Part shown: positions 12,406 through 30,121 of the stretch, one piece after another | Numbering within the stretch: the stretch's first letter is position 1 | Layout: the number at the start of each line of letters is the position of its first letter | NCBI GenBank assembly: GCA_944387425.1 | Contig: CALXEV010000012.1 | Location: 1 to 42,956 of the forward strand | DNA length: 42,956 nucleotides | Reading direction: 5' to 3' | Source: an uncultured Clostridia bacterium | GTDB lineage: Bacteria; Bacillota; Clostridia; TANB77; CAG-508 | Notes under the pieces: model-generated | The model's input: only the letters and a program-made list of their open reading frames with translations | Database searches by the model: none | What the model was told of the DNA's origin: nothing | Program-made: the position numbers and the translations under genes

Positions 12406-12559
12406 TTTGTATAAGGCATTAAATATGCCGATGTGGCGGAATTGGCAGACGCACTGGATTCAAAATCCAGCGGGAAACCATGTGGGTTCGAGTCCCACCA
12501 TCGGTACCAAACAATTTGGTTTTTATATATAACTAAGTTGTATAAATGCCTTATACAAA
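12406..12559. repeat. 15-bp inverted repeat flanking the element's tRNA-Leu
   Basis: TTTGTATAAGGCATT at 12406-12420 and its exact complement AATGCCTTATACAAA at 12545-12559 bracket the tRNA gene. The right arm also folds locally (TTGTATAA/TTATACAA). It could form a long RNA stem around the tRNA or mark a captured cassette. Confidence 0.7.
12427..12509 (+). tRNA. tRNA-Leu(CAA) carried by the element
   Basis: This is a complete 83-base class II tRNA. The acceptor GCCGATG pairs with CATCGGT (one G-T pair), the D arm is GGCGGAATTGGCAGACGC, and the anticodon stem CTGGA/TCCAG encloses loop TTCAAAA with anticodon CAA. It has the short variable arm of this tRNA type, T arm GTGGGTTCGAGTCCCAC, discriminator A and encoded CCA. 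Its 3' middle portion is identical to the split chromosomal tRNA-Leu. Both read UUG leucine codons, so it can replace the gene the element destroys. It lies 137 bases downstream of attL in the same orientation. Confidence 0.97.
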
Positions 12560-12605: not shown

Positions 12606-13814
12606 TTATTGACTTTTTGAAAATAAACTTGCTATTGTATTAGCAGAATTTATTTTTGAACTACTATCTAAATGAGAATAAATATTAGCAGTAGTTGACC
12701 ATGTTGAATGACCAAGCCATTGTTGGATTTCTTTCATGTTTACACCATTAGCAAGTAGTAAACTTGCACAACTATGTCTTAAATCGTGAAAACGTATTTT
12801 TCGTAAATTATTTTTTTCTAAAAGTAAAGCAAAATTTCTAGTAACTCTATCAGGTTTTATAAGTTCACCCTCATCATCTACTAAAATATAACCTTTTTTA
12901 TTTTTATAACTATTACCAAAAATTTTTTTATTATATTCTTGTTTTTCTTTTTCTTTTAAAAGTAGTTCTTCAATATATGGGATTAATGGAAGAGTTCTAT
13001 TGCTACTCATATTTTTTGTTCTATCTTTTTCTACCATAAAACTATGACCTTCCACACAAGCATTTGTTACAGTATGTCTAATACTTATAGTTTTATCCAC
13101 AAAATTTATATTGTCAAAGGTCAAACCTATTACTTCTTCGCGTCTTAGAGCATAATATGTAGCTAATAAGATATGTAATTCTATAAAACTACCTTTAGCA
13201 ACTTCAAATAGATTTTCTAATTCTTGTTTATTATAATAGGAAGCAATATATTGTTCATTTTTTTGATGTTTAATATTTCGAGCAACATTAGTTTCTATTA
13301 GTCCTCGTCTGACTGCATCCTCTAGTGATTTGTGAATTACTGCATGATATTTTCTTACTGTATTATATTTAATATTTCTAGTAGTTAATAAAAAATCATA
13401 ATATGTTTGAATATCAGAAGTTTTTAATTCACTAAGCTTAATATTTTGTTCTTCAAAATATTTAGATATAAGTTTAACGGTTCTTTCATAACCACCATAA
13501 GTCGTTAATTCTAGGGTAGGTTTAACTAACTTTACCCAATTTTTTAAATAATCTTGGAACAAAATATTAGCACCTTTGTTTTCTTCAATAATTTCTTTAG
13601 TTGGTGTGTTTAACTTTTCTTCAAATTGTCTTTCAACTTCTTTTTGTTTTTTCTTAGCTTTTGTTTTATTTCCAACGGCATCTTTAATTCCTAGGCTTTT
13701 CCATTTTTGTTGTCGCTTTCCATTTATATAATAATTGAGAATAACTTGAAACCAACCTCTATTGGTTATAAGGTTGCTTGTAACAGTTATATATTCTGAT
13801 GTTGTATTTGTCAT
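12606..13814 (-). CDS. Tyrosine recombinase/integrase of the element
   Basis: The 402-residue protein has an N-terminal arm-binding AP2-like region (about 10-70), a SAM-like core-binding domain (about 82-185) and a catalytic domain (about 190-395). Catalytic residues are visible: Arg224 in LRREEVIGL, His343 and Arg346 in HDLRHS, His369 in LGHS and Tyr379 in NIYSHL. It is of the Tn916/phage integrase type common in Gram-positive elements. It should catalyse integration at the tRNA-Leu anticodon loop and, with the excisionase, excision. The ATG follows GAAAGGAG. It lies about 320 bases from attL, the usual place for an element integrase. Confidence 0.96.
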   Translation of the reverse strand: MTNTTSEYITVTSNLITNRGWFQVILNYYINGKRQQKWKSLGIKDAVGNKTKAKKKQKEVERQFEEKLNTPTKEIIEENKGANILFQDYLKNWVKLVKPTLELTTYGGYERTVKLISKYFEEQNIKLSELKTSDIQTYYDFLLTTRNIKYNTVRKYHAVIHKSLEDAVRRGLIETNVARNIKHQKNEQYIASYYNKQELENLFEVAKGSFIELHILLATYYALRREEVIGLTFDNINFVDKTISIRHTVTNACVEGHSFMVEKDRTKNMSSNRTLPLIPYIEELLLKEKEKQEYNKKIFGNSYKNKKGYILVDDEGELIKPDRVTRNFALLLEKNNLRKIRFHDLRHSCASLLLANGVNMKEIQQWLGHSTWSTTANIYSHLDSSSKINSANTIASLFSKSQ

Positions 13815-14251: not shown

Positions 14252-17071
14252 TTAAAATGTATTTGAATTATATATGTTAGGACGTTTTGGTTTATTCCAT
14301 ACAACAGGTTTTTCATCATTTGCAAAAGTGGTATCTTCTCTTGGCTTTATTGCTACAACTGTTTTTGATTGTCCATTAACTTTTCGTTGTATGGTATATC
14401 TTCTTTTATCTGTTCTATAGAGTTTATTTTCTTCTAGTAAATATTTCCATAAAGATTTTGCATTTATAGGAAATTTTACATTTCCACTAGCATATAATTT
14501 TATAATCGCATTATAGATTACATTTGGAAAGAAATAGTAAAGTTCTTCTTCATCATCATAGTAACCTACATTTGAACCACATTCAGATAGTTCTTTTACT
14601 AGTTCACCTGTTCTATAATTTAATACACTAATACTATTTGTTGCAAATAGTTGGTCTAAAGCATTATAAAACATTTCTGTTGGTTTCAAATCAGCAATTT
14701 CTTGTGTTTGATTTTTAACAAGTTTTACTAATGTTTGATAGCAACTCTTGTCTAATTCCTCTTTTTTTAATTTATCAATAACACCATTGTCTACTAAAAA
14801 TTCTGTAAAAATTGAGAAGCCAGTTATTAAAGCATTTGCAATTTCATTTGTTCTTCCATGAGCATTTTTATTTTGTTTTTCTTTTAGTTCGTTAAATTTT
14901 TCTTTGGCAGATTTTTTAATGTCCTGTTCATTTTTTATAATCCACTCTATGTACTTTTTCATAGAAAAAGCTAATTCTTCACTATTATTTTGTAGGTCTG
15001 TTAATTTGTTTAGGTCAATGCTATTTTGCTCAATGTTTAAAATTAATGACCTTGCAATTCGGCTCTGTGCAACATCAGGTACTGTTTCTCCTGTTACAAT
15101 ACACATACCTCTTGCAACATAAGGCAATTTCAATGTTTTACCGTTTTGAGACATTCTAGTTCTACCAGTTCTATCTCCATACATTGCATAAAGCCTTTCC
15201 ATTGTATCTAGCTTTCTGCTTCCAATAATTTCGGGGTTGTAATCATCAACTACGATAATGGAATCTTTTATCAAAAATGCTATCTTTTCGATACTATTTA
15301 GAGTGTCCCTAAAACTTGCAGGAAAAGTATCTCTATCAAAAATACCAAAATGACATAATGATAATGCAGCAATACTACTTTTTCTAGTTCCAGTTTTACC
15401 TTGTATAAATAAGATAAAATCTGGATGAATACCTAACTCACTAAACATTGAAGTTAGTGGCGCAGTATATATTGTTGCTAGTAATGGTATAGTTATATCA
15501 TAACTTGCCATATATACCATTGATAAACTACATTGAAGAGCTTGTTTTGTATCAAATTCTTTATTTGTAAAACAAAATCTTTCTAGCTTATCCATTGATA
15601 AATCTGCAAAAACATCTTCAACATTACCAATCACTCCTCCATGGTAGAGATAGCACAATTTACCATTAATCCTAGTAAATCCTGTATGTGCATAAATATT
15701 TTTTTCTTCCATAATGTGTCTACCTATATGCTGACTTGCTTCTCTTAATTTATCTGGTATTGTACTTCCTGCTGAAGTAATTGCGTATTTGTCCCAACTT
15801 GAGCCTAAAATATAATTGTTTTTTTGCAACTGTTCAACAGTTATTACTTGTTCAGCTAATTTAATGTTTGGTTCATCTAGTATTAAGCATTTTATTTTAT
15901 AAAATGTCTCTGTATCTCTGCCATTTATATAATTAATTTTTTCTATTGGATATGTCACAAAATTACTTAATTGTACATACTTATCTTCACTTTTTGCATG
16001 ATATAAATGTCCATTATATATAAAATAATTTGTTCCTTCTAATGCTTTCATACATTGTTGTAATTCATAGTTGTCAATTATTTCAACTGTTGGAACATCA
16101 TTAGAAGCTTCTTTTGTTGTTTCTGTAATTTTATAAAATGTGTTGCTTTCATAAGCAATACTTGTACCACCAAAAAACATTGTTGCTATACTAGTTGGTG
16201 CTGTGTCTATATTATAATCCTTAAATGTTTCTTTAAAACCATTATATATTGCTTTTACAATTTCTTGGCTTTGTATTGCCATTTCTAATATGTACACTAA
16301 TCTAAATTTGTGTTGCTGTTCTGTATGCGAAAATGTATAGTATACAAATGTTGGCAACAAGTTAATTTCTTTGCAGTAACTAATAATTTTATCAACTGTA
16401 ATGTGTTCTTCATTGTCCGCAGTTATATTTTGTTTTACACCATTTACAGTTTTTACATTATCTACATCAACCATAAATATTTGATAAAAATTGATATTAT
16501 CATTCCAGTCGGTTTGTGATTTGATTCCTGCTGGTATACAAGTATGACCTGTAATTAATTTTTCTTTTATATCTTTTAATTGGTAAGCCATAGGTTGTAA
16601 ATTTGCAATATTATTTTTTATAATTCCTATTTCTTCTCCTGTTGGCTTTTTCGCAAAAGCTGTAGTATCAAACATACAATATATTTCTTCTGGCTTATTA
16701 TCAGTTGCTTTTAATTCAAAAGTTTTATTGTATGTTATATTGTTATTTTGTGTAATATTTGTAATTTGTGTATTATAATTGGTTGGTAATTCTATATTAA
16801 ATTCTTTTGCAATATATTTTAATGCTTCAAAATTATTAATTGCTTTACCCATAGAAACAACAAATTTAAAAATATCTCCTTTAAAATCTCCACCAAAGTC
16901 TGTTATGCTAACTTCGTTAACACATAATGATGGGTCACTATCTCCATCTCTAAATGGCGAATGCCATTTCCAAGTTTCTCCATTTTTTACTGGTGGCTCT
17001 CCTAATATACTTTTTACTAACTCACGAGCATTTACCTGCTTTTTCACGAAATCAAAAATATTTTGTTCCAT
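14252..17071 (-). CDS. Primase-helicase replication protein (AEP-like plus DUF927/P-loop)
   Basis: The 939-residue protein has three parts. Residues 1-95 look like a CHC2 primase zinc-binding region (WHSPFRDGDSDPSL, then GDIFKFVVSM) but without the usual cysteine set. Residues about 195-300 have an archaeo-eukaryotic primase look: hDhD at 201-204 (VDVD) and TFSHTEQQHKFRLVYIL near 246-262. Residues about 430-760 resemble DUF927/D5-type helicases, with Walker A QGKTGTRKS at 557-565 and Walker B IIVVDDY at 605-611. Such proteins open and prime the origin of satellites and plasmids. A GAGGAGG site precedes the ATG. It probably starts replication of the excised element at a nearby origin. Confidence 0.85.
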   Translation of the reverse strand: MEQNIFDFVKKQVNARELVKSILGEPPVKNGETWKWHSPFRDGDSDPSLCVNEVSITDFGGDFKGDIFKFVVSMGKAINNFEALKYIAKEFNIELPTNYNTQITNITQNNNITYNKTFELKATDNKPEEIYCMFDTTAFAKKPTGEEIGIIKNNIANLQPMAYQLKDIKEKLITGHTCIPAGIKSQTDWNDNINFYQIFMVDVDNVKTVNGVKQNITADNEEHITVDKIISYCKEINLLPTFVYYTFSHTEQQHKFRLVYILEMAIQSQEIVKAIYNGFKETFKDYNIDTAPTSIATMFFGGTSIAYESNTFYKITETTKEASNDVPTVEIIDNYELQQCMKALEGTNYFIYNGHLYHAKSEDKYVQLSNFVTYPIEKINYINGRDTETFYKIKCLILDEPNIKLAEQVITVEQLQKNNYILGSSWDKYAITSAGSTIPDKLREASQHIGRHIMEEKNIYAHTGFTRINGKLCYLYHGGVIGNVEDVFADLSMDKLERFCFTNKEFDTKQALQCSLSMVYMASYDITIPLLATIYTAPLTSMFSELGIHPDFILFIQGKTGTRKSSIAALSLCHFGIFDRDTFPASFRDTLNSIEKIAFLIKDSIIVVDDYNPEIIGSRKLDTMERLYAMYGDRTGRTRMSQNGKTLKLPYVARGMCIVTGETVPDVAQSRIARSLILNIEQNSIDLNKLTDLQNNSEELAFSMKKYIEWIIKNEQDIKKSAKEKFNELKEKQNKNAHGRTNEIANALITGFSIFTEFLVDNGVIDKLKKEELDKSCYQTLVKLVKNQTQEIADLKPTEMFYNALDQLFATNSISVLNYRTGELVKELSECGSNVGYYDDEEELYYFFPNVIYNAIIKLYASGNVKFPINAKSLWKYLLEENKLYRTDKRRYTIQRKVNGQSKTVVAIKPREDTTFANDEKPVVWNKPKRPNIYNSNTF

Positions 17072-17449: not shown

Positions 17450-17572
17450 GTAATTGCAGACCTTTTATATAAAATAATGCTAAAGTTGTTTTGTTCTTTT
17501 CTGCATATATGATACTAGATTTTTAAATGTCTTGTAAATGTAAAGAATTTTTGAACTTTGGAGGAAAATGAA

Positions 17573-18586
17573 ATGGAAAATTCAAAACATTTGAACAAAT
17601 GGATAATAAAAGATTATAATAAGTTTAAAAATAAGTTAAAAGAATTAGGCAGTTTTGAAGATATTGCTAGTAATTTGGGTTATTCAGATGAAACAATACG
17701 TAATTGGTACTATTATAGAGCAATAATAGGTTCTGATGCTATAAGTAGAATACTTAAAGAATATAATGTAGAAAAAGAAGAACTAGGGGTAGAATTAGTA
17801 AATGAAGAAGAGTATAACACAAAAATTTTTAAAGGAAGATTAAAAGAACTATTGGATGAAAAAGAAATGAAAAATATAGATTTAGCTACTGCTATAAATG
17901 TTGACAAATCTAATATTACAAACTGGTTAAATAAAGATAATACGATATTACCACAAAATGATAGATTACAAAAATTAGCAAATTATTTTGATGTAAGTGT
18001 TTCATATTTACTAGGAAATACAGATAATAAAAAGGCTGATAATGAAATAATTGGAAAAAGATTAGGTATGAGTGATAAATCAATAGCAGCAAGAGAAGAA
18101 ATAAAGAACACCACTGTTTATGGGAAAAAATTTGAAGAAGAAGTAAAAAGTATATATGGCTTCAATCATTCAGATATCTCAAATTATCTAACATCAGATA
18201 TTGGCTTAGTAGATGTGTTTTACGGAGAAGCCTTAAAAGTTTTATCATATTATAGCGGTGGGAAATTTAAAAATTTTTTTGATAGTTTATTTAATGAAAT
18301 GGAAGTAGACTTAACAGAAAATGAATTATTGGAAAATGATAATGACAAAGAATATATACCTATGGAAATATCAACACCATACAGAGTAACCATAGAAACA
18401 ATGGCAAAAGCAATTTTACAAAAAAAGATAGGTATAATGTTTGATGAATTTATAGATGAAGTAGTGAAGAAAAAACAGATATCAAAATATAATGATTATA
18501 ATTATCAAGAAAAGAAAATAAAAGAACAAATAAGTAAATTAGAAAAAGAATTATCAGATATAGAACAAATAAAGAAAAATAATTGA
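17573..18586 (+). CDS. Regulator with two helix-turn-helix domains and C-terminal coiled coil
   Basis: I chose the ATG at 17573, 8 bases after GGAGG; the frame can open earlier at a TTG that overlaps the ribosome site. The 337-residue product has an N-terminal HTH (GSFEDIASNLGYSDETIRNWYYYRAI, about residues 22-50). A Cro/C1-type HTH follows (RLKELLDEKEMKNIDLATAINVDKSNITNWL..., about 90-145, ending VSVSYLLGN). Then come an uncharacterised helical domain and a lysine/glutamate-rich coiled coil over the last 35 residues. It is transcribed divergently from the replication and excision genes and is the best candidate for the element's master repressor. Confidence 0.75.
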   Translation: MENSKHLNKWIIKDYNKFKNKLKELGSFEDIASNLGYSDETIRNWYYYRAIIGSDAISRILKEYNVEKEELGVELVNEEEYNTKIFKGRLKELLDEKEMKNIDLATAINVDKSNITNWLNKDNTILPQNDRLQKLANYFDVSVSYLLGNTDNKKADNEIIGKRLGMSDKSIAAREEIKNTTVYGKKFEEEVKSIYGFNHSDISNYLTSDIGLVDVFYGEALKVLSYYSGGKFKNFFDSLFNEMEVDLTENELLENDNDKEYIPMEISTPYRVTIETMAKAILQKKIGIMFDEFIDEVVKKKQISKYNDYNYQEKKIKEQISKLEKELSDIEQIKKNN

Positions 18587-19047: not shown

Positions 19048-19890
19048 ATGAAAACAGGATTCAAAGATTTAGATAAAACAATTAAAATAGATAAACCACA
19101 AATAATATTAATAACAAGTACAGATGAAATTGAAAATGTATTTGCATTAAATCTAGTAAAAAACATAGCAATAGATGAAAATATAAAAACAGCTTTATTT
19201 ACAGATTTAGATTTAGAAAATGTAGAAGAAGAATTTAAAATATACACAAAAAATATACTCACTTCAATTTGTTCAACAGTAGATATAAACAAAATTATAG
19301 ATAGTAGATACATAAAAACAATATTAACAAAAGAAGAATTAGAAACAGCAAAAACAAAAGGAAAAGCAGAAGTATTGTTTGATGAAACAGAAGGACAGAA
19401 ATTATATATAACAAAAGAAATATTAAATAATGTGGAAGAAAAAAGAGTAAAAGAAAGTTGCAAAAAAATAAATAATGCACCACTTTATATTAATACAGAA
19501 GAAGGAATTACTATTAATGAATTTAAAGAAAAATGTCGAGATTTGAAGCTAGAAAAAGACATACAACTAATTGTAATTAATACAGTGACAATAAATGATA
19601 CAAAAGTAAATATTTTAAAAACAATAAATGAACTAGCAAAAGAATTGGAAGTTACAATAATAGTTACAGTACCTACAATAGAAAATAATAATATACCATT
19701 AAAACAAGAACTAAAAGAACTTGTAGAACTAATGAATATAACTGACATAACAATATACTTAAAATTAGGAAATGAAGAAGAAAAAGGAATTGTACATTGC
19801 ATAGTAGATACCAAAGATACAAGAAATGTAATAGACTTGATTTATCTTACAAAATATAATAAATTTGTGGATTTAATAAGAAAATTGTAA
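19048..19890 (+). CDS. DnaB-helicase-like RecA-fold protein lacking catalytic motifs
   Basis: The 280-residue protein aligns by eye with the DnaB C-terminal domain: TGFKDLDK, then IILITSTDEIENVFALNLVKNIA where DnaB has its P-loop, LYINTEEGITINEFKEKCRDLK, LIVINTVTI where DnaB has LIVIDYLQL, and LAKELEVTIIV followed by the regulatory-loop region. The Walker A lysine and threonine are gone, and the Walker B aspartate is an asparagine. The N-terminal DnaB domain is missing. It cannot be an active helicase. It may bind or disturb a host DnaB ring, or be a structural partner of the element's replisome; both are inference. The ATG has a GGAAAAG site. Confidence 0.65.
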   Translation: MKTGFKDLDKTIKIDKPQIILITSTDEIENVFALNLVKNIAIDENIKTALFTDLDLENVEEEFKIYTKNILTSICSTVDINKIIDSRYIKTILTKEELETAKTKGKAEVLFDETEGQKLYITKEILNNVEEKRVKESCKKINNAPLYINTEEGITINEFKEKCRDLKLEKDIQLIVINTVTINDTKVNILKTINELAKELEVTIIVTVPTIENNNIPLKQELKELVELMNITDITIYLKLGNEEEKGIVHCIVDTKDTRNVIDLIYLTKYNKFVDLIRKL

Positions 19891-21305: not shown

Positions 21306-21713
21306 TTGAATAAGATTAGAATATTAATAGTAGAACCAGATAAAGAACCATATAAAAAGAAAATACCACATACATTAAAAGATATGCAAAAAGTTGTAGG
21401 AGGACTAATAGAAATTGTGGAACTTGAATATAATGTAGAATTAATATGTAATGAAGAAGGAAAAATATATAATTTACCCATGAATAGAGCAATACAAAAT
21501 GATATTATAGCAGGAACTTTCTTTATAGCAGGACAACACAATGGAGAAACAATTTCATTAAGTAAAAAACAAATAAAGAAATACAAAAAAATGTTTAAAT
21601 TAAGTCAAGATAAGGCATTAATAGATTTATTACAAGAAACAGTAAAAGAAAGTAGTAATTTATTAGATTTGAGATTAGTAAATGTTGGAAATTGGAGGGA
21701 GAAAATAAAATGA
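21306..21713 (+). CDS. DUF3846-family protein
   Basis: The 135-residue protein starts at TTG behind GGAGATG; an earlier ATG in another frame stops at once. The N-terminal part IRILIVEPDKEPYKKKI..TLKDMQKVVGGLIEIVEL, then ICNEEGKIYNLPMNRA, then DIIAGTFFIAG matches the DUF3846 family. That family is common in conjugative and integrative elements of Firmicutes and sometimes linked with anti-restriction proteins. Biochemical function is not established. Its TGA overlaps the ATG of the next gene (ATGA), which implies translational coupling. Confidence 0.8.
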   Translation: MNKIRILIVEPDKEPYKKKIPHTLKDMQKVVGGLIEIVELEYNVELICNEEGKIYNLPMNRAIQNDIIAGTFFIAGQHNGETISLSKKQIKKYKKMFKLSQDKALIDLLQETVKESSNLLDLRLVNVGNWREKIK

Positions 21714-22171
21714 GTGATAAAGAAAAACGAAAAAATGAATTATTAGAAGAATTAGCACTACTTTATAAAAATGACATTTCAAATAAAGAATTAAAAATAG
21801 ATAACAAAAAAATAGAAGAAAAAAGACAAACAAATGTAAAAGATTATTTTAAAGGATTTTACAAAGAATTTGAAATATACAGAGAAGAAAAAATAAAAGA
21901 AATACCTGTAATATTAAGATTATATGAAAATTTTATAGAAGAAATATATCAACCAAGTAAAAGATATAAACTAGCATTGAAAATAAGAAATGAAATAAAT
22001 GAAGATATAGAAAAAACATTTACAGATGAACAAAAAGAAATAATGACACAATATAAAGAGTGTGAAAATATCATGATAGATGATATGGTACAAGAAGCAT
22101 TCGTGTATGGTTATTCAATGTGTTCTCAACTAAAAGAAGAATCTACAAAAAAATACCACATAGAAAAATAA
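21710..22171 (+). CDS. DUF6809-like helical protein (long form)
   Basis: The ATG at 21710 overlaps the preceding stop (ATGA) and follows GGAGGGAG. The 153-residue protein is highly charged and helical. Its C-terminal 85 residues (LYENFIEEIYQPS... FTDEQKEIMTQYKECENIMIDDMVQEAFVYGYSMCSQLKEES) clearly resemble the convergent 92-residue protein at 22428-22706. Both resemble the small DUF6809 group seen in Firmicutes elements (LY..IYP...YGF..G). The N-terminal 60 residues are an extra coiled segment. Function unknown. Confidence 0.6.
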   Translation: MSDKEKRKNELLEELALLYKNDISNKELKIDNKKIEEKRQTNVKDYFKGFYKEFEIYREEKIKEIPVILRLYENFIEEIYQPSKRYKLALKIRNEINEDIEKTFTDEQKEIMTQYKECENIMIDDMVQEAFVYGYSMCSQLKEESTKKYHIEK

Positions 22172-23243: not shown

Positions 23244-23364
23244 TTTAATTATATATCGACATATTTAATTAATATTCATATTTTAAATTTCTTTTATAAT
23301 TAGTCAATACAATTTCATTGGAAAAATATATAAAACATGGTAAAACGAAGGTCGTGGGTTTTAA

Positions 23365-23706
23365 CTATTGATTAGATAAGTAATTTAAGTAATTATCTAA
23401 TTGTCTTTTATTTTCAGCAGATAATGAATTATATTTATCTATAATATTATTTATTTCAATTTCACTTTTATTTAAGTCTTTAACAGTACTAGGGTTGTTG
23501 GTTCTTTCAAGTAGATAATCTGTACTACAATTAAAATATTCAGCAAGTTTTAGTAATGTTTCAATGTTGGGTTTACTTTTGCCAGTTTCGTAATGAGAGA
23601 TTAACTCTTGGGATACTTCTATATCAACAGATAATTTAGTTTGAGTTATATTTTTCTTTTCTCTTATTTGTCTTAAGTTATCCATTTTAAAATCTTTAAA
23701 ATCCAT
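23365..23706 (-). CDS. XRE/Cro-C1-family transcriptional regulator
   Basis: I chose the ATG at 23706 behind GGAGG. The 113-residue protein has a textbook Cro/C1 HTH at about residues 8-66 (LRQIREKKNITQTKLSVDIEVSQELISHYETGKSKPNIETLLKLAEYFNCSTDYLLERTN). A short helical tail (IEINNIIDKYNSLSAENKRQLDNYLNYL) follows, probably for dimerisation. It is divergent from the zinc-ribbon membrane-protein genes, with a perfect 7-6-7 dyad (23749-23768) between them, so it very likely represses itself and that operon. Confidence 0.9.
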   Translation of the reverse strand: MDFKDFKMDNLRQIREKKNITQTKLSVDIEVSQELISHYETGKSKPNIETLLKLAEYFNCSTDYLLERTNNPSTVKDLNKSEIEINNIIDKYNSLSAENKRQLDNYLNYLSNQ

Positions 23707-23748
23707 ATTGTTACCTCCAAAAACTATCATCATTATAACTGGTATAAG

Positions 23749-23768
23749 TCTATGTACTAGAACATAGA
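23749..23768. promoter_or_regulatory. Dyad operator TCTATGT-N6-ACATAGA
   Basis: A perfect 7-bp inverted repeat with 6-base centre lies 43 bases upstream of the XRE gene start and upstream of the plus-strand promoter at 23801-23829. It is the obvious candidate binding site of the XRE protein. Confidence 0.65.
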
Positions 23769-23800
23769 ATAATACTTTTTAAAAACATTATTAGTAAGAC

Positions 23801-23829
23801 TTGTAAAAAATATGAATTAGTGTTATATT
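23801..23829 (+). promoter_or_regulatory. Promoter of the zinc-ribbon membrane-protein operon
   Basis: TTGTAA (23801-23806), 17 bases, TATATT (23824-23829). It leads into three consecutive plus-strand genes ending at the terminator at 27166-27203. Confidence 0.6.
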
Positions 23830-23886
23830 GATAATAGATAATTGTATTATTTTGTCGAAAGACAAAAAAGAAAGGGAAAATTTGTT

Positions 23887-24984
23887 ATGAAATGTAAAAA
23901 ATGTGGAAATGAAATACAAGAAGGAGAAAAATTTTGTGGTAGATGTGGAACAAAAATAGTTAATAATAAAACAAGAAAAATAATATTGTTAATAGTTGTA
24001 AGTGTAATGATAACATTAATAATAGTATCTATAATTATTTCTAATAATAAGTTCAAAAGTTCAAATAAAAATGTTAATAACATAAAAAGTGAAGAAATGA
24101 ACACAAATGAAAAAATAAATACAGATGAAGAAATAAATAAAGATGAAACTAAAAATATCAATAATTTAAATGAATTAATGACTATTGGAAAACAAGCAGG
24201 AAAAGAACACATAATAGAAAATATAGCATCAGAAGCTTTACTGGAAAGTTGTTCGTTTGATGAAAAATATATAATAGAGAATGCAACACTAGATACACAG
24301 TCATATACGATTAATGATAAATTAATTGGATGTTATATTTTCTATACTGAACCTCAATATGCAAATCAAGGATATGAAGCATATGGCATAAAACCAATCT
24401 TTACTGGATATGCAATTAAAGCATTAGAAGGAGTAATAAAAATAAATGATTTTAATATATGGTTAAAAGAAAATAGAAAATCAATGGAAGAAATAATAGA
24501 TGAAGGCATAGTTGAGGTTAGTAAAGGTATAAAAAGTGATTGTGGTTTTATTACAGACGGTTTGGATAAAAGTGGTACTGATTTAACTATACAAACAACT
24601 ATTAACAATGTTAAAACTATAAGTAGTATAAAAGGAGATATTAATAAATATGCTTTAGATAAACAATGGATTAGTAAAGAAACATATGAAAGTATGGAAA
24701 ATGAAAGAAAAACAAACGAAGAAGAAAGTATAACACAGAATAAAAAAGATAATGCCGAAGCACTTATAAATATGATAGTAAATGATTGTACATTTATGGA
24801 TGTAGACCCAAATGGAAATGAATATAATAGAATGTGGTACGACTCATTACAAATGCAATTAGAAGATTTAGAGGGGATTTCTGGATTACCAGAAGAAATA
24901 ACAGAAGATAGTTTTCCATTAACAATAACATATCAGGGACAAACATTTGAAATAACAAAAAACGGAGAAGTAATAAATAAATAA
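23887..24984 (+). CDS. Zinc-ribbon membrane protein 1
   Basis: The frame opens upstream, but the ATG at 23887, behind AAAGGGAAAA, starts exactly at the zinc ribbon MKCKKCGNEIQEGEKFCGRCG (Cys3/6/17/20). The 365-residue product then has a basic linker, one membrane helix (about residues 33-54), an Asn/Glu/Lys-rich spacer and an extracellular part with two regions: about 100-230 (SCSFDEKYIIENATLDTQ... with paired cysteines) and a C-terminal part ending LTITYQGQTFEITKNGEVINK. The cytoplasmic ribbon, single helix and variable outer domain form a common Firmicutes architecture of unknown function. It is the first of three such genes. Confidence 0.75.
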   Translation: MKCKKCGNEIQEGEKFCGRCGTKIVNNKTRKIILLIVVSVMITLIIVSIIISNNKFKSSNKNVNNIKSEEMNTNEKINTDEEINKDETKNINNLNELMTIGKQAGKEHIIENIASEALLESCSFDEKYIIENATLDTQSYTINDKLIGCYIFYTEPQYANQGYEAYGIKPIFTGYAIKALEGVIKINDFNIWLKENRKSMEEIIDEGIVEVSKGIKSDCGFITDGLDKSGTDLTIQTTINNVKTISSIKGDINKYALDKQWISKETYESMENERKTNEEESITQNKKDNAEALINMIVNDCTFMDVDPNGNEYNRMWYDSLQMQLEDLEGISGLPEEITEDSFPLTITYQGQTFEITKNGEVINK

Positions 24985-25009
24985 AATATAAAAAGGAAAT
25001 GATATATTT

Positions 25010-25765
25010 ATGAAATGTAAAAAATGTGGAAATGAAATACAAGAAGGAGAAAAATTTTGTGGCAAATGTGGAAATAAAATAAAGGTTAATAACAAAAAGC
25101 TAGATATATACCAAATTATAATATTATCAGTAATAGTAATACTAATATTAACAGGAATAGTATTAGCAATAAGGAAATCTTTTAATAAAGATGAAACATC
25201 AAATTTAAATAATAATAATAATGGAACAACATTAAATAATTCAAATACACTTATACAAAATAATATTTCAGATAATTTGCAGGTGCTAGATATAAAAAAT
25301 AATGAACTAAAAATAAATGCAACTGAGTTAATAAGCGAAATAATTTCAGCAAATAATGCAACAACAGAATATAAATATACTAAAAAACTTCAAGATAGTA
25401 GAGGAAATTATAATGTATATTCTATAGGAAATTCAACATTGCATGGGACTTTGGCAGCATATCCATTTCTTATTCTTGAAAATAAATCAACTGGAAATGT
25501 TGTAAGAATTTGTATCTATTATGCATATAATGGTGGAACAAGGCTTAATACTAGTTCAATTAATACTAATTATTCTATCCTCTATGATGCATTAAATGCA
25601 ATAAATCAACAAGAATTAGCAAGTGCGATAATGACAATAAAAAATAATTTTGATGGTACTACTGCTACTAAATCAGTAAAAGGTTTAAAGTACGGTATAA
25701 TGGATAATCCTAATTCAAGTGGTTTTTATCTTATGTTAGGAACAACTATGGATTCACTAGAATGA
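25010..25765 (+). CDS. Zinc-ribbon membrane protein 2
   Basis: The 251-residue protein has the same N-terminal ribbon as the previous gene; the first 53 bases of the two genes are identical (23887-23939 and 25010-25062). A membrane helix follows (about residues 35-59), then an Asn-rich spacer and an outer domain (about 95-251) quite unlike that of protein 1: ELISEIISANNATTEYKYTKKLQDSRGNYNVYSIGN...GTTMDSLE. An AAAGGAAATG site lies upstream. It is in the same operon, 25 bases after the previous stop. The identical ribbon DNA suggests recent duplication or conversion. Confidence 0.75.
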   Translation: MKCKKCGNEIQEGEKFCGKCGNKIKVNNKKLDIYQIIILSVIVILILTGIVLAIRKSFNKDETSNLNNNNNGTTLNNSNTLIQNNISDNLQVLDIKNNELKINATELISEIISANNATTEYKYTKKLQDSRGNYNVYSIGNSTLHGTLAAYPFLILENKSTGNVVRICIYYAYNGGTRLNTSSINTNYSILYDALNAINQQELASAIMTIKNNFDGTTATKSVKGLKYGIMDNPNSSGFYLMLGTTMDSLE

Positions 25766-25799
25766 GAAATTAAATAAAAAGAAAAGGAATAGATTAAAA

Positions 25800-27161
25800 A
25801 TGATTTGTAAAAAATGTGGAAGAGAAATAAAAGAGGGTAATATTTTTTGCACATATTGTGGAACACCTATAAAAGCAAGTAATGAAGAAATAGAAAATAC
25901 AATAAATGCGAAAAATACAAATATAAAAAAACATAGATTACCAAAATTAAAAATAATTATACCAATAATAGTAGTTGCTTTAATAGCTATATGTATAACT
26001 GTTGCGATAATTTTAAAAAATAAAAATAATGAAGATACTAATCCAAGTGAAGTTGTAGAGGAACAACAAGAAACTTCAAAAATAGAAATAGGAACAAACT
26101 ATAATTGTTCTACTTATGGTGTTACAGGATATATAAATTTTAATACAGAAACAAGTTTTGTGATGAATATGACATACGATATGTCAGAAAGTGTAACATA
26201 TAATGGTACATATAAAATAGAAGGAGATACAATAACTTTAACAGTAACATATTATGATATGGCAGAAGACCCGGAAACATTTGAGCCATACACAGAAACA
26301 ATAAATATATTAGAAGATGGAACATTAAAATATACAAGTTCAACTGGTGCTACATATATATTTGATAAGAATGTAACATTATCAGAAGCAAGTGCAGAAG
26401 CCACAGAAACAACAACTGGAGATTTATTAGAACAAATATATGCAAAATATCCAAGTTTACAAGGAACAGAAGGAATTGTATGTACAGATGGAACAGACTA
26501 TTGGCTATTAGATGAAACAGGAAATAAAGTATATTTTACAGATTTAACAAGTTTTGAAAGTGCATTATTAGAGTGTAACATAGATGTTAATAATATTGGA
26601 AGTTCAACAAGTACAAAAATAGATATGGAGCAATTTGTAAGAGAATTAAGTTATGGTTCAACAAGTACAGTAAATAATGTAAACTATGCAAGAGATGGAT
26701 ATAGAGCAGATTATTTTTATTATGATGAAGATTTAACATTAGATGACTTTACTAAAACAGAAGAAGGAAATAATATAACATATTCAATAACTACTACTAA
26801 AACTAGAAGCATTAATTATGACTTCCCTATGACTTTATCTATAACTATTACAAAAGATAATATATTAAAAGAAATAAAAATAACAGCACAACCAAAAGAG
26901 TGGGAAGCAAAAGAAATATTTAATTGTGCAGAAGAAGTTGAAGCAGCTCTAGGATATACATTATATAATCAATATACTTCTGTCTCTACTGAAATAATAA
27001 AAGATATAAAAGAGGATATGGTATCATATAATTATATGGAAGGTAGTTATTATAAATTAAGTGTAACAAATAAAACAGTAACAAAAGAAGATACTACACA
27101 TAATAAAACAGTTACATTTACTATTGGTACTGATACATTAACTTATGATATGGTATTTTAA
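25800..27161 (+). CDS. Zinc-ribbon membrane protein 3
   Basis: The 453-residue protein begins MICKKCGREIKEGNIFCTYCG (four-Cys ribbon), then a basic stretch, a membrane helix (about residues 51-69) and an acidic spacer. A beta-rich lipocalin-like domain (about 95-195; YNGTYKIEGDTITLTVTY, then ILEDGTLKYTS) follows, then a linker with LLEQIYAKYPSLQGTEGIVCTDG, and a further beta-rich C-terminal domain. The outer part probably faces the cell exterior. AAAGGAATAG precedes the ATG. It is the last gene before a strong terminator. Confidence 0.75.
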   Translation: MICKKCGREIKEGNIFCTYCGTPIKASNEEIENTINAKNTNIKKHRLPKLKIIIPIIVVALIAICITVAIILKNKNNEDTNPSEVVEEQQETSKIEIGTNYNCSTYGVTGYINFNTETSFVMNMTYDMSESVTYNGTYKIEGDTITLTVTYYDMAEDPETFEPYTETINILEDGTLKYTSSTGATYIFDKNVTLSEASAEATETTTGDLLEQIYAKYPSLQGTEGIVCTDGTDYWLLDETGNKVYFTDLTSFESALLECNIDVNNIGSSTSTKIDMEQFVRELSYGSTSTVNNVNYARDGYRADYFYYDEDLTLDDFTKTEEGNNITYSITTTKTRSINYDFPMTLSITITKDNILKEIKITAQPKEWEAKEIFNCAEEVEAALGYTLYNQYTSVSTEIIKDIKEDMVSYNYMEGSYYKLSVTNKTVTKEDTTHNKTVTFTIGTDTLTYDMVF

Positions 27162-27165
27162 AAAT

Positions 27166-27203
27166 AAAAGTTCACTAAACAAAAAAATTAGTGGACTTTT
27201 TAA
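27166..27203 (+). terminator. Terminator of the zinc-ribbon operon
   Basis: AAAAGTTCACTAA pairs with TTAGTGGACTTTT (13 bp with one G-T) around a 9-base loop, followed by TTA. Confidence 0.85.
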
Positions 27204-27212
27204 AATACTAGC

Positions 27213-27241
27213 TTGGAAAAATAACTATATTATCATATAAT
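27213..27241 (+). promoter_or_regulatory. Promoter P1 (copied at 28325)
   Basis: TTGGAA (27213-27218), 17 bases, TATAAT (27236-27241). The surrounding GCTTGGAAAA...TCATATAATAAA recurs at 28324-28356, so the promoter was duplicated. Confidence 0.65.
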
Positions 27242-27273
27242 AAATGCGATATATATGAAAGGATTTTAAAAAT

Positions 27274-27711
27274 ATGGAAGATTTAGATATAGAAAAAATA
27301 ATAATAGACAATTTTCATAAAATGATACAAGATGAAAACTACCCAAAAGAAACAGTACAAAGACATATAGAAGAAATACAAGAAGGATTAAATGTTATTA
27401 AACAAAATGGAGATTTAGAAATATTAAAAACATTATATATAATAGAACAAAATTTATATGAAGAATTAAACAAAACTAATCAAACTATATTAATAAAAGA
27501 AAATAAAGGAATATTTACTAATGTAACGACAGCAATAATATTTGCACTAGGATATGGAAAACATGGTTTTAGGATAGGACTACAAAGTAAAAACTTGAAA
27601 GACAAGCATATTATTTTAGAAGTACCAGGAGCAATTAAAGATAGAGTTGCAGATATACTAAATGCAAATTATAAAAACTGGGAAGCGGTTTTTAAAGTGA
27701 AAATTTCATAA
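27274..27711 (+). CDS. Hypothetical protein, partly duplicated downstream
   Basis: The 145-residue protein has an acidic helical N-terminal half (EKIIIDNFHKMIQDENYPKETVQRHIEEIQEGLNVIKQ) and a C-terminal part (IIFALGYGKHGFRIGLQ..HIILEVPGAIKDRVADILNANYKNWEAVFKVKIS). No known domain is recognised. The last 22 codons recur, decayed, at 28252-28317. It stands just before the macro-domain gene, 23 bases away, and probably shares its transcript. AAAGGA precedes the ATG. Confidence 0.65.
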   Translation: MEDLDIEKIIIDNFHKMIQDENYPKETVQRHIEEIQEGLNVIKQNGDLEILKTLYIIEQNLYEELNKTNQTILIKENKGIFTNVTTAIIFALGYGKHGFRIGLQSKNLKDKHIILEVPGAIKDRVADILNANYKNWEAVFKVKIS

Positions 27712-27734: not shown

Positions 27735-28245
27735 ATGGAAAAACTAATTTTAGTAAGTGGAGATATAATAAAAAATTCTACAAATATAGAAGCTATTGTA
27801 AACCCAGCCAATGAATATATGGAATATGGAGGAGGCGTTTGTGGAGCAATTTATGAAAATGCAGGTATAGAATTATTAGAAAATTATTGTCATAATAAAT
27901 GGAATACAGAAATGAAAGTAAATGAAATAAGAATTACACCACGGTTTTAGACTTGCAAAAGAAATAATACATATACACCCACCTAGATATTATGAGGAAA
28001 AAGAACCAATAAAAAAATTAAAAGAAAGTTATTTGAATTTATTTGAAATAATTAAACAAGAAAGATATAAAAGTGTGATTATTCCATCATTAGGAACAGG
28101 ACATTATGGATATATGCACCAAGAAGTGGCAGAAATGGTTATGCACTCATTATGTGATTTTTGTATAAACAATGATGTTACTATCATATTTAATTTGCTT
28201 GATGAAACTGTCAAAACAATTTATAAACAATATTTAGTAGCATGA
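27735..28245 (+). pseudogene. Macro-domain (ADP-ribose-binding) protein, frameshifted
   Basis: The N-terminal frame (27735-27950) has GDI, VNPAN and YGGGVCGAI, the ADP-ribose-binding loop of macro domains, but stops after IRITPRF. Removing one base at 27942 (ccaCggt) restores PGFRLAKEIIHIHPPRYYEE and joins it to the second half (IIPSLGTGHYGYMHQEVAEMV), giving a normal macro domain of about 169 residues. Macro domains bind or remove ADP-ribose and O-acetyl-ADP-ribose; in mobile elements they can counter ADP-ribosylating defences. Either the gene is dead or the sequence has an indel. The start follows AAGGAG. Confidence 0.85.
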
Positions 28246-28251
28246 AACTTA

Positions 28252-28317
28252 GATACATATATATTAATTGCAAATCATAAAAACTGAGAAGAGGTTTTTA
28301 AAGTGGAAATTTCATAA
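28252..28317 (+). pseudogene. Remnant of the 3' end of the 27274-27711 gene
   Basis: Twenty-two codons match the end of the upstream gene (ANHKN-stop-EEVFKVEIS against ANYKNWEAVFKVKIS). A TGG is changed to TGA. It marks an old tandem copy, now lost except for this piece and the promoter that follows. Confidence 0.7.
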
Positions 28318-28324
28318 TACCGGC

Positions 28325-28443: not shown

Positions 28444-29172
28444 TTAAAGTATTGTATCTTTTTTTAATTCTTTCTTATATTTATAAAAAGTAGTTTTAGA
28501 AACATTAGCCAATTTCATACATTCAATATCATTTAAAGTTCCATCAAAATCTTTTGAATGTTTTAAAATTATTTCCTTTGATTTAATAGATTTTTTAGTG
28601 GTTAGTTTTGCTCCACGAGGTTGTCCTATTTGTTTTCCATTTAATTTTGCAGTTAAAATACCTTCTTTTGTTCGTTGGTGTAAATCTTGAACTTCTTTTT
28701 CTGCTTGATCAAAGGCTTTTTTTATTTGCTCTTTTGCTAGTGCTATTGTATATTTGTTTAAAGCTGATATAATTGTTTTCATAAGTTCATCAGTGGCTTC
28801 ATTTCCAGTTTTTAAGACAATGTTTATTTGATTATCTAATGCTTTTCGGTACACTTCTGTATTGATATAACTTTCTTTTAGAAATACTAAGTTAATTCCC
28901 TTATTAAATAATTCCTCATACAAATTACAACCTTCTTCTGAATTTCTGCTCATACGGGATACAGAATCAAAAATTAAAGTATCTCCTTCTTTTAGTATTT
29001 TTAATAAATTTTCAAAATCTCTTCTCCCTTCAATTTTAACACCAGTAAAAGTTTCTTTTATAATTTTAGCATTTGGGTATTTTGCTAGTATATTTCTTAT
29101 TTGTCTTTCTATATTTTGCTTACCAGTACTAATTCTAGCCACACCATATTCTATTCCTAATTTTACAGACAT
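28444..29172 (-). CDS. Serine recombinase (resolvase/invertase family)
   Basis: The 242-residue protein has an N-terminal resolvase domain with GVARISTGKQNIERQ (catalytic serine in RIS, near residue 16), the FDSVSRMSRN motif (usual form LDRLSR) near 70-79, and a long E helix. A C-terminal helix-turn-helix follows (DIECMKLANVSKTTFYKYKKEL). It is of small resolvase/invertase size, not a large serine integrase. It may resolve multimers of the replicating element or invert DNA; the dyad and direct repeats in front of it (29193-29298) are possible recombination sites. AGGAGG precedes the ATG. Confidence 0.92.
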   Translation of the reverse strand: MSVKLGIEYGVARISTGKQNIERQIRNILAKYPNAKIIKETFTGVKIEGRRDFENLLKILKEGDTLIFDSVSRMSRNSEEGCNLYEELFNKGINLVFLKESYINTEVYRKALDNQINIVLKTGNEATDELMKTIISALNKYTIALAKEQIKKAFDQAEKEVQDLHQRTKEGILTAKLNGKQIGQPRGAKLTTKKSIKSKEIILKHSKDFDGTLNDIECMKLANVSKTTFYKYKKELKKDTIL

Positions 29173-30078: not shown

Positions 30079-30121
30079 CGTGCGGGAAACCATGTGGGTT
30101 CGAGTCCCACTTTGGGCACCA
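30079..30121 (+). pseudogene. 3' half of chromosomal tRNA-Leu(CAA)
   Basis: It begins CGTGCGGGAAACC and contains the right anticodon-stem arm, variable arm, T arm GTGGGTTCGAGTCCCAC, acceptor TTTGGGC, A and CCA. It pairs in every stem with the 5' half at 12251-12290. It has no promoter of its own. Confidence 0.93.

Follow-up and report, generated by a model that had tools for sequence, protein, structure and literature searches.

What kind of system is formed by three adjacent genes whose products begin with the same zinc-ribbon head and a single membrane helix and then differ? The genes in question, g1, g2 and g3, lie side by side in contig CALXEV010000012.1 of an uncultured Clostridia bacterium; the window analysed here is that whole stretch of 42,956 nucleotides (nt). 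Our best reading, which we hold at somewhat better than even, is that they form an element-borne, modular cassette of envelope proteins, probably controlled by an XRE regulator and exchanging its cargo, with a putative function. The element, the heads, the exchange of modules and the kept position of the XRE gene can be read in the sequence itself; the topology of the proteins, repression by XRE and a function facing the wall are what we infer.

A common head with different ectodomains

The operon and the modules of its third gene are laid out as follows.
23887..24984, + strand: g1, with zinc ribbon, helix, unrecognised middle and a C-terminal part of ~80 amino acids (aa) resembling the soluble region of prepilin-like proteins
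25010..25765, + strand: g2, with zinc ribbon, helix and orphan ectodomain
25800..27161, + strand: g3, with zinc ribbon, helix, d1 (residues 91-202), d2 (203-266) and d3 (267-453)
26070..26405, + strand: d1 module of g3, a calycin/lipocalin-like barrel by model
26406..26597, + strand: d2 module of g3

The three genes are co-directional, with spacings of 25 nt (g1-g2) and 34 nt (g2-g3), and encode 365, 251 and 453 aa, respectively; the coordinates and frames given in a first-pass annotation of this DNA are correct. At the N-terminus of each protein stands a CxxC-x10-CxxC motif, and PF13240 scores all three above its gathering score of 25 bits (g1 30.9, g2 30.3, g3 31.4 bits). The ribbon is followed by a single hydrophobic helix, as called by a Kyte-Doolittle scan rather than a topology program. 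Four PF13240 matches are found in the own genome, three of them in this operon. In the two pairs of outer parts that were scored, g1/g2 and g2/g3 (g1/g3 being left out), similarity is undetectable, with local-score z values of 2.0 and 0.0. These low values and the three ribbon scores bear out the annotation's picture of one four-cysteine ribbon and one helix combined with unrelated outer parts.

Searches of the g1-g3 ectodomains against Pfam, NCBIfam and PDB sequences gave no convincing match, and the Pfam scan found neither PASTA (PF03793) nor SHOCT in these proteins. They are presumably single-pass proteins with a cytoplasmic ribbon head and an ectodomain outside. The ectodomain is placed there because of the partners encountered at related loci (PASTA, foldases, sortase-type) and because zinc ribbons require reduced cysteines.

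Structure models add to this picture for one module. The d1 model has a predicted local distance difference test score (pLDDT) of ~77, a best Foldseek E of 1.6e-3 (NlpE) and VIA Z values up to 9.4 over residues 90-192; with modest confidence, d1 may be regarded as a calycin-like barrel. The quality of the d3 model was too poor for fold assignment. For g2, the model was built from a single sequence (mean pLDDT 58.7), with a best Foldseek E of 0.043 and a best VIA Z of 6.4. The middle of g1 gave only weak matches, to long open reading frames (ORFs) read as DNA ligase, and these are taken as chance. The last ~80 residues of g1 match (E 1e-7 to 6e-6) proteins that begin like prepilins and are encoded at five loci, spread over four congeners. 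At these loci (L023, L024, L025, L026 and L029) the prepilin-like start and the module shared with g1 are followed by long variable C-termini. For one of them (L127, the region of L023), a DUF3846 gene and an integrase with 44% identity to that of the window are close by.

Module exchange between sister elements

Among 287 genomes of the order, d1 is present in five, the own genome included. The closest relative is found in the congener G260 (contig CALXFF010000025.1, uncultured Clostridia bacterium), where d1 is 96% identical and belongs to a sister element adjoining a tRNA-Phe gene. Amino acid identity between the two elements is 64% for the integrase, 81% for the replication protein, 78% for the DnaB-like protein and 84% for the DUF6809 protein, and the XRE proteins share 112 of 122 residues. 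In a blastn comparison, two blocks bracket the operon: 23250-23882 (86.8%), which corresponds to the XRE gene and control region, and 27159-27244 (79.3%), which includes a hairpin at the operon end. Inside the operon, G260 DNA matches only the heads and 25781-26613. The G260 cargo consists of a SHOCT protein, a SHOCT-ribbon-helix protein, a ribbon-helix ORF followed by a PASTA ORF, and a counterpart of g3. The ribbon-helix and PASTA parts (L160:16276-17035) are split between two frames, and a TA run is found close to where they join; either slippage or an assembly error could account for the split.

The third gene is itself a mosaic. Residues shared by g3 and its G260 counterpart amount to 18/30 for the head, 33/57 for linker plus helix, 107/112 for d1 and 63/64 for d2; for d3 the figure falls to 28/142, the C-terminus of the counterpart being unrelated to d3. 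Compared with L186 (CALXAV010000016.1), the values are 20/30 for the head, 40/58 for linker and helix, 101/112 for d1, 54/64 for d2 and 138/187 for d3. As read from these alignments, it is d3 that documents module exchange. The same modules recur in other company: ribbon, helix and d2 are joined to a different C-terminus in L187 (CAMMLJ010000015.1) and to leucine-rich repeats, read from the sequence, in G117 (d2 E 7.9e-12). Ribbon, helix and d1 are joined to a cyclophilin in G215 (d1 E 1.2e-17; cyclophilin by Pfam, E 8.3e-42) and in G253 (Pfam having been run on G215 alone). Furthermore, the PASTA ectodomain that follows a zinc-ribbon helix ORF in G260 has a 48% identical counterpart in L187, where the head is SHOCT. 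Shuffling of domains downstream of a conserved head, as the first-pass annotation had proposed, is supported by the mosaic g3 in G260 and by modules recurring with cyclophilin and leucine-rich repeats. At positions with identical residues, window and G260 share 156/165 codons in d1+d2 versus 1208/1515 in six pooled backbone genes (p 3.2e-7).

G215 and G253 deserve attention for another reason. In both, d1 belongs to a conserved, chromosomal-looking three-gene zinc-ribbon operon beside genes read as tadA- and dnaX-like. Chromosomal housekeeping homologues with the same outer domains and order had been named at the outset as what would speak against the proposal; such a case was found in part, with d1 shared but with other partners and in another order. 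Together with PF13240 matches in 206 of 238 genomes of the order, many of which belong to other architectures such as C-terminal ribbons, this operon favours an ordinary capture, in which housekeeping zinc-ribbon membrane proteins of the host were taken up and have no element-specific role. We consider such a capture unlikely: d2, d3 and the ectodomains of g1 and g2 were not found at a fixed chromosomal place, and the XRE region is retained while the slot content next to it changes.

How are the heads themselves maintained? From the ATG onwards, g1 and g2 are identical over exactly 53 nt. In consecutive 60-base blocks, 58 positions agree in the first block, then 31, 26 and 22. With two upstream bases the run reaches 55 nt (starting at 23885 and 25008) and is the sole exact direct repeat of at least 30 nt in the window. 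Given the same 16 residues and the local codon use, identical codons would arise by chance with a probability of ~0.005, and chance or codon bias as the sole cause was therefore rejected. The 53-base identity noted in the first reading is real; it is not a one-off but the high point of a head class that sister elements share. Over its 60-nt cysteine core, g1 has an identity of 0.93 to g2, 0.90 to two heads of sister elements and 0.88 to a third. Overall, these cores fall into two classes: a g3 class, with 0.85-0.88 identity among window, G260 and L186, and a g1/g2 class, with 0.80-0.93 among g1, g2 and the E1, P, s336 and s282 heads of G260 and L186. The heads are thus kept across unrelated ectodomains, but the g3 head mostly stays with the g3 ectodomain. 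L186 holds five ribbon-headed ORFs, three of which have an extra N-terminal stretch resembling SHOCT (24.9 bits by Pfam in one of the three, cut-off 27).

Mean head identity is 0.780 within operons (17 pairs), 0.804 for pairs with the same ectodomain between operons (9 pairs) and 0.777 for other pairs (52); homogenisation of heads across whole operons is unsupported by these means. In hand-picked tandem loci, the heads of four of nine adjacent single-pass pairs are 0.82-1.00 identical in nt, compared with maxima of 0.86 (nt) and 0.75 (aa) among 636 between-genome head pairs. The G144 pair (0.82 nt, 0.83 aa) exceeds the between-genome maximum in aa only, and in the tandem pair of G210 the outer parts are related as well (z 17.1). 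A further tandem of three zinc-ribbon single-pass genes occurs in G172 (L073:2316-5634). Two of its genes have identical head codons over 72 nt and different outer parts; PDZ is present in one gene and PASTA in the third.

The XRE-linked slot and its element

The operon is flanked by the following regulatory features.
23365..23733, - strand: divergent XRE regulator (HTH_3 E 1.7e-17)
23749..23768, + strand: candidate operator, palindrome TCTATGT-N6-ACATAGA
23801..23829, + strand: candidate operon promoter, TTGTAA-17-TATATT
27166..27200, + strand: hairpin of 13 base pairs (bp), then a T run; terminator candidate

The divergent XRE gene was correctly recognised in the first reading, and its position is kept in relatives. 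The candidate operator occurs once exactly in the window, with a further match at 14946 containing one mismatch (mean in shuffles 0.02). Its core TTCTAGTA (XRE strand) is kept in 10 of 11 control regions, as read from the alignment. TTGTAA is kept in all 11; promoter-like sites overall are no commoner than in shuffles (34 vs 35.9). The hairpin folds with a z of -6.24 and none of 200 shuffles was equally good; a terminator scan based on G-C did not list it. Being divergent and beside the palindrome, the XRE protein probably controls the operon, presumably as a repressor.

A search of 366 genomes for homologues of the XRE protein (E<=1e-15) gave 22 places in 21 genomes, the own included. Of the 21 places outside the own genome, 17 have a readable divergent side (G365, G244 and G368 are unreadable and G129:C32 was left out). 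By hydropathy or Pfam, membrane or surface proteins are found at 13 of the 17 (G260, G187, G351, G341, G274, G328, G224, G263, G291 twice, G297, G374 and G060), an ABC transporter at two (G231, G270) and neither type at two (G165, G329). The types beside related XRE genes include PASTA, sortase, foldase and SHOCT-headed proteins. By Pfam, PASTA is over cut-off in proteins of G260, L187, G291 and G172, the G328 slot holds sortase and papain-type proteins, and G060 has a parvulin-type foldase behind a ribbon head. In G374 and G060, further genes lie between the XRE and the ribbon genes. At five loci (L066:6143-6712, L118:13502-14071, L169:8281-8841, L160:13790-14365 and L075:4505-4975), ORFs of 156-191 aa starting with V-[EQ]-P-I-R and read as tyrosine-recombinase-like lie beyond the cargo; they might be markers or movers of the slot.

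The element that carries the operon spans ~17.6 kb and is integrated at a tRNA-Leu gene with exact 29-bp att repeats. Its other features are listed here.
12427..12509, + strand: tRNA-Leu (caa), integration target (ARAGORN)
12470..12498, + strand: left att copy, inside the tRNA 3' part, 29 nt exact
12606..13814, - strand: tyrosine integrase (Phage_integrase E 3.4e-21; PHROG integrase E 2.4e-62)
14252..17071, - strand: element replication protein, 939 aa (DUF927/primase-like, weak)
17558..18586, + strand: HTH regulator, 342 aa (HTH_3 E 4.3e-10)
19048..19890, + strand: DnaB-like protein, 280 aa (DnaB_C E 7.3e-11)
21306..21713, + strand: DUF3846 protein, upstream of the cargo slot (PF12957 E 1.7e-31)
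21692..22171, + strand: DUF6809-like protein (26.5 bits, slightly below the cut-off of 27)
28444..29172, - strand: serine recombinase, invertase-like (Resolvase E 1.5e-21)
30082..30110, + strand: right att copy, 29 nt exact

The tRNA gene ends at 12509, and 29 nt of its 3' part recur exactly at 30082-30110. Between the att copies lie the integrase, the replication protein, DnaB-like proteins, DUF3846, DUF6809, XRE, the operon, a macro-domain gene and the serine recombinase. As judged from the tRNA gene, the integrase and the repeats, the operon is cargo of an integrative element, in agreement with its earlier assignment to mobile DNA. Pfam scans of 18 element ORFs, which left shorter ORFs aside, found no relaxase, terminase or capsid. 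Relatives of the replication protein occur in 24 of 238 genomes of the order and DUF3846 homologues in 41 of 238, the own genome included in each case.

Relatives of the serine recombinase in G238 (L072) and G151 (L121) share 97% (over 215 aa) and 82% identity with it, respectively, and both are close to element genes. Phase inversion by this enzyme was considered and set aside, as the 15 inverted repeats are weak and include no convincing flanking pair. The macro-domain gene (27735-28245) has a broken frame after 27950, with Macro E 5.5e-7 in its N-terminal part. The end of a 145-aa gene (27655-27711) apparently recurs in degraded form at ~28262-28318, as read from the sequence.

A mobile, repressor-linked, variable and envelope-facing cargo also suits superinfection exclusion, in which the ectodomains would keep phages or rival elements from adsorbing or from passing their DNA into the cell, and would diversify under pressure from phages. 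In addition, one IMG/VR contig has a zinc-ribbon single-pass gene (L018:2701-3642) beside genes read as tail- and lysis-like. However, PADLOC (2023 library) had no match for g1-g3, neither g3 nor g2 turned up among 50,697 phage records, and PHROGs matched the heads alone, weakly and with no assigned function. IMG/VR returned one contig for g2 and g1, driven by the head, and none for g3; g3 had no match in plasmids, and g1 was outside the plasmid and phage record searches. We regard exclusion as improbable.

Known relatives and a proposed role

Zinc-ribbon membrane proteins such as TcaA and YdjG are already known, as are SHOCT proteins. Staphylococcal TcaA (NF053815) resembles g1-g3 in its N-terminal zinc ribbon and single helix. 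Residues 3-79 of g3 match it weakly (E 8.6e-6, 24.8 bits, cut-off 550), g1 and g2 are unlisted, and its outer domains, unlike the head, have no match in g3. TcaA belongs to the tcaRAB operon (PMC10611510), and its neighbours are a MarR regulator and a transporter rather than an XRE gene. The YdjG-type zinc-ribbon/helix/NTF2-like proteins of PSP-linked operons (PMC11237479) likewise combine a membrane-anchored ribbon with an extra domain, but they have two ribbons, a PspA context and another extra domain, none of which is seen at this operon. SHOCT (PF09851) is presented in PMC3581485 as a short exchangeable domain on many partners, among them a double zinc ribbon, a pairing noted eight times. 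Heads with SHOCT or SHOCT+ribbon are present in sister operons, whereas SHOCT is absent from g1-g3.

The weak TcaA match, and the recurrence of zinc-ribbon and SHOCT parts in envelope-stress gene sets (PMC11237479), point towards sensing of envelope stress, in which the state of the ectodomain would pass via the helix to the ribbon and from there to a bound cytoplasmic partner. Against this, the operon has no partner, kinase or sigma gene and the heads comprise merely ~25 residues. The calycin-like fold of d1 suits NlpE too, yet likeness of fold shows no function. Sensing appears rather implausible to us.

Integrative elements and prophages have variable accessory-gene slots, in which cargo changes while backbone and regulator are conserved. 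In the present slot, by contrast, change extends inside genes, with modules swapping behind a kept membrane head. In the open literature searched, we recognised no description of an XRE-controlled element slot with shuffled ribbon/SHOCT single-pass proteins, which is weak evidence of absence.

How might a modular envelope cassette operate? The conserved XRE switch would release a set of single-pass proteins. The ribbon would hold them at the inner membrane face, or connect them to it, and the outer modules would act at the cell wall. Heads (zinc ribbon, SHOCT or both) would serve as a common plug. Element lineages would retain the repressor, the control region and the end hairpin, and would swap whole genes as well as single ectodomain modules. 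The host envelope may thereby be altered or guarded for the benefit of the element, e.g. through binding of wall material, which is proposed because PASTA members sit in sister slots. More speculatively, and with little confidence, a Clostridia element family could use one XRE-controlled slot for combinatorial display. Interchangeable cytoplasmic plugs (zinc ribbon, SHOCT or both) would dock to a shared host partner and present ectodomain modules that are reshuffled by recombination inside genes, from gene to gene and with the chromosome, and element lineages would thereby go on redesigning the host envelope.

Several observations weigh against a cassette dedicated to the envelope. Zinc-ribbon heads occupy only three of the 17 readable XRE slots (G260, G374 and G060), and the XRE is therefore not specific to zinc-ribbon cargo. 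The ABC transporters and nuclease-like genes of some slots fit a general accessory hotspot. Among 191 genomes, the g2 ectodomain was matched only in its own, and it is poorly modelled; heads from one operon are, overall, no more alike than heads from different ones. Two backbone genes almost match the codon identity of d1+d2 (197/217 and 115/128), so that sister elements vary in relatedness along their length and a recent d1-d2 exchange is unproved.

On balance, swapped outer parts behind a kept switch suggest a putative mobile kit for cell-surface change. Zinc-ribbon single-pass proteins are common and mostly unexplained. Here the ectodomain changes while control region and head class persist, which opens the function of the head to direct testing. 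Should the cargo prove to affect adsorption, conjugation or wall stress, small elements would have a new way of remodelling the cell surface in uncultured Clostridia.

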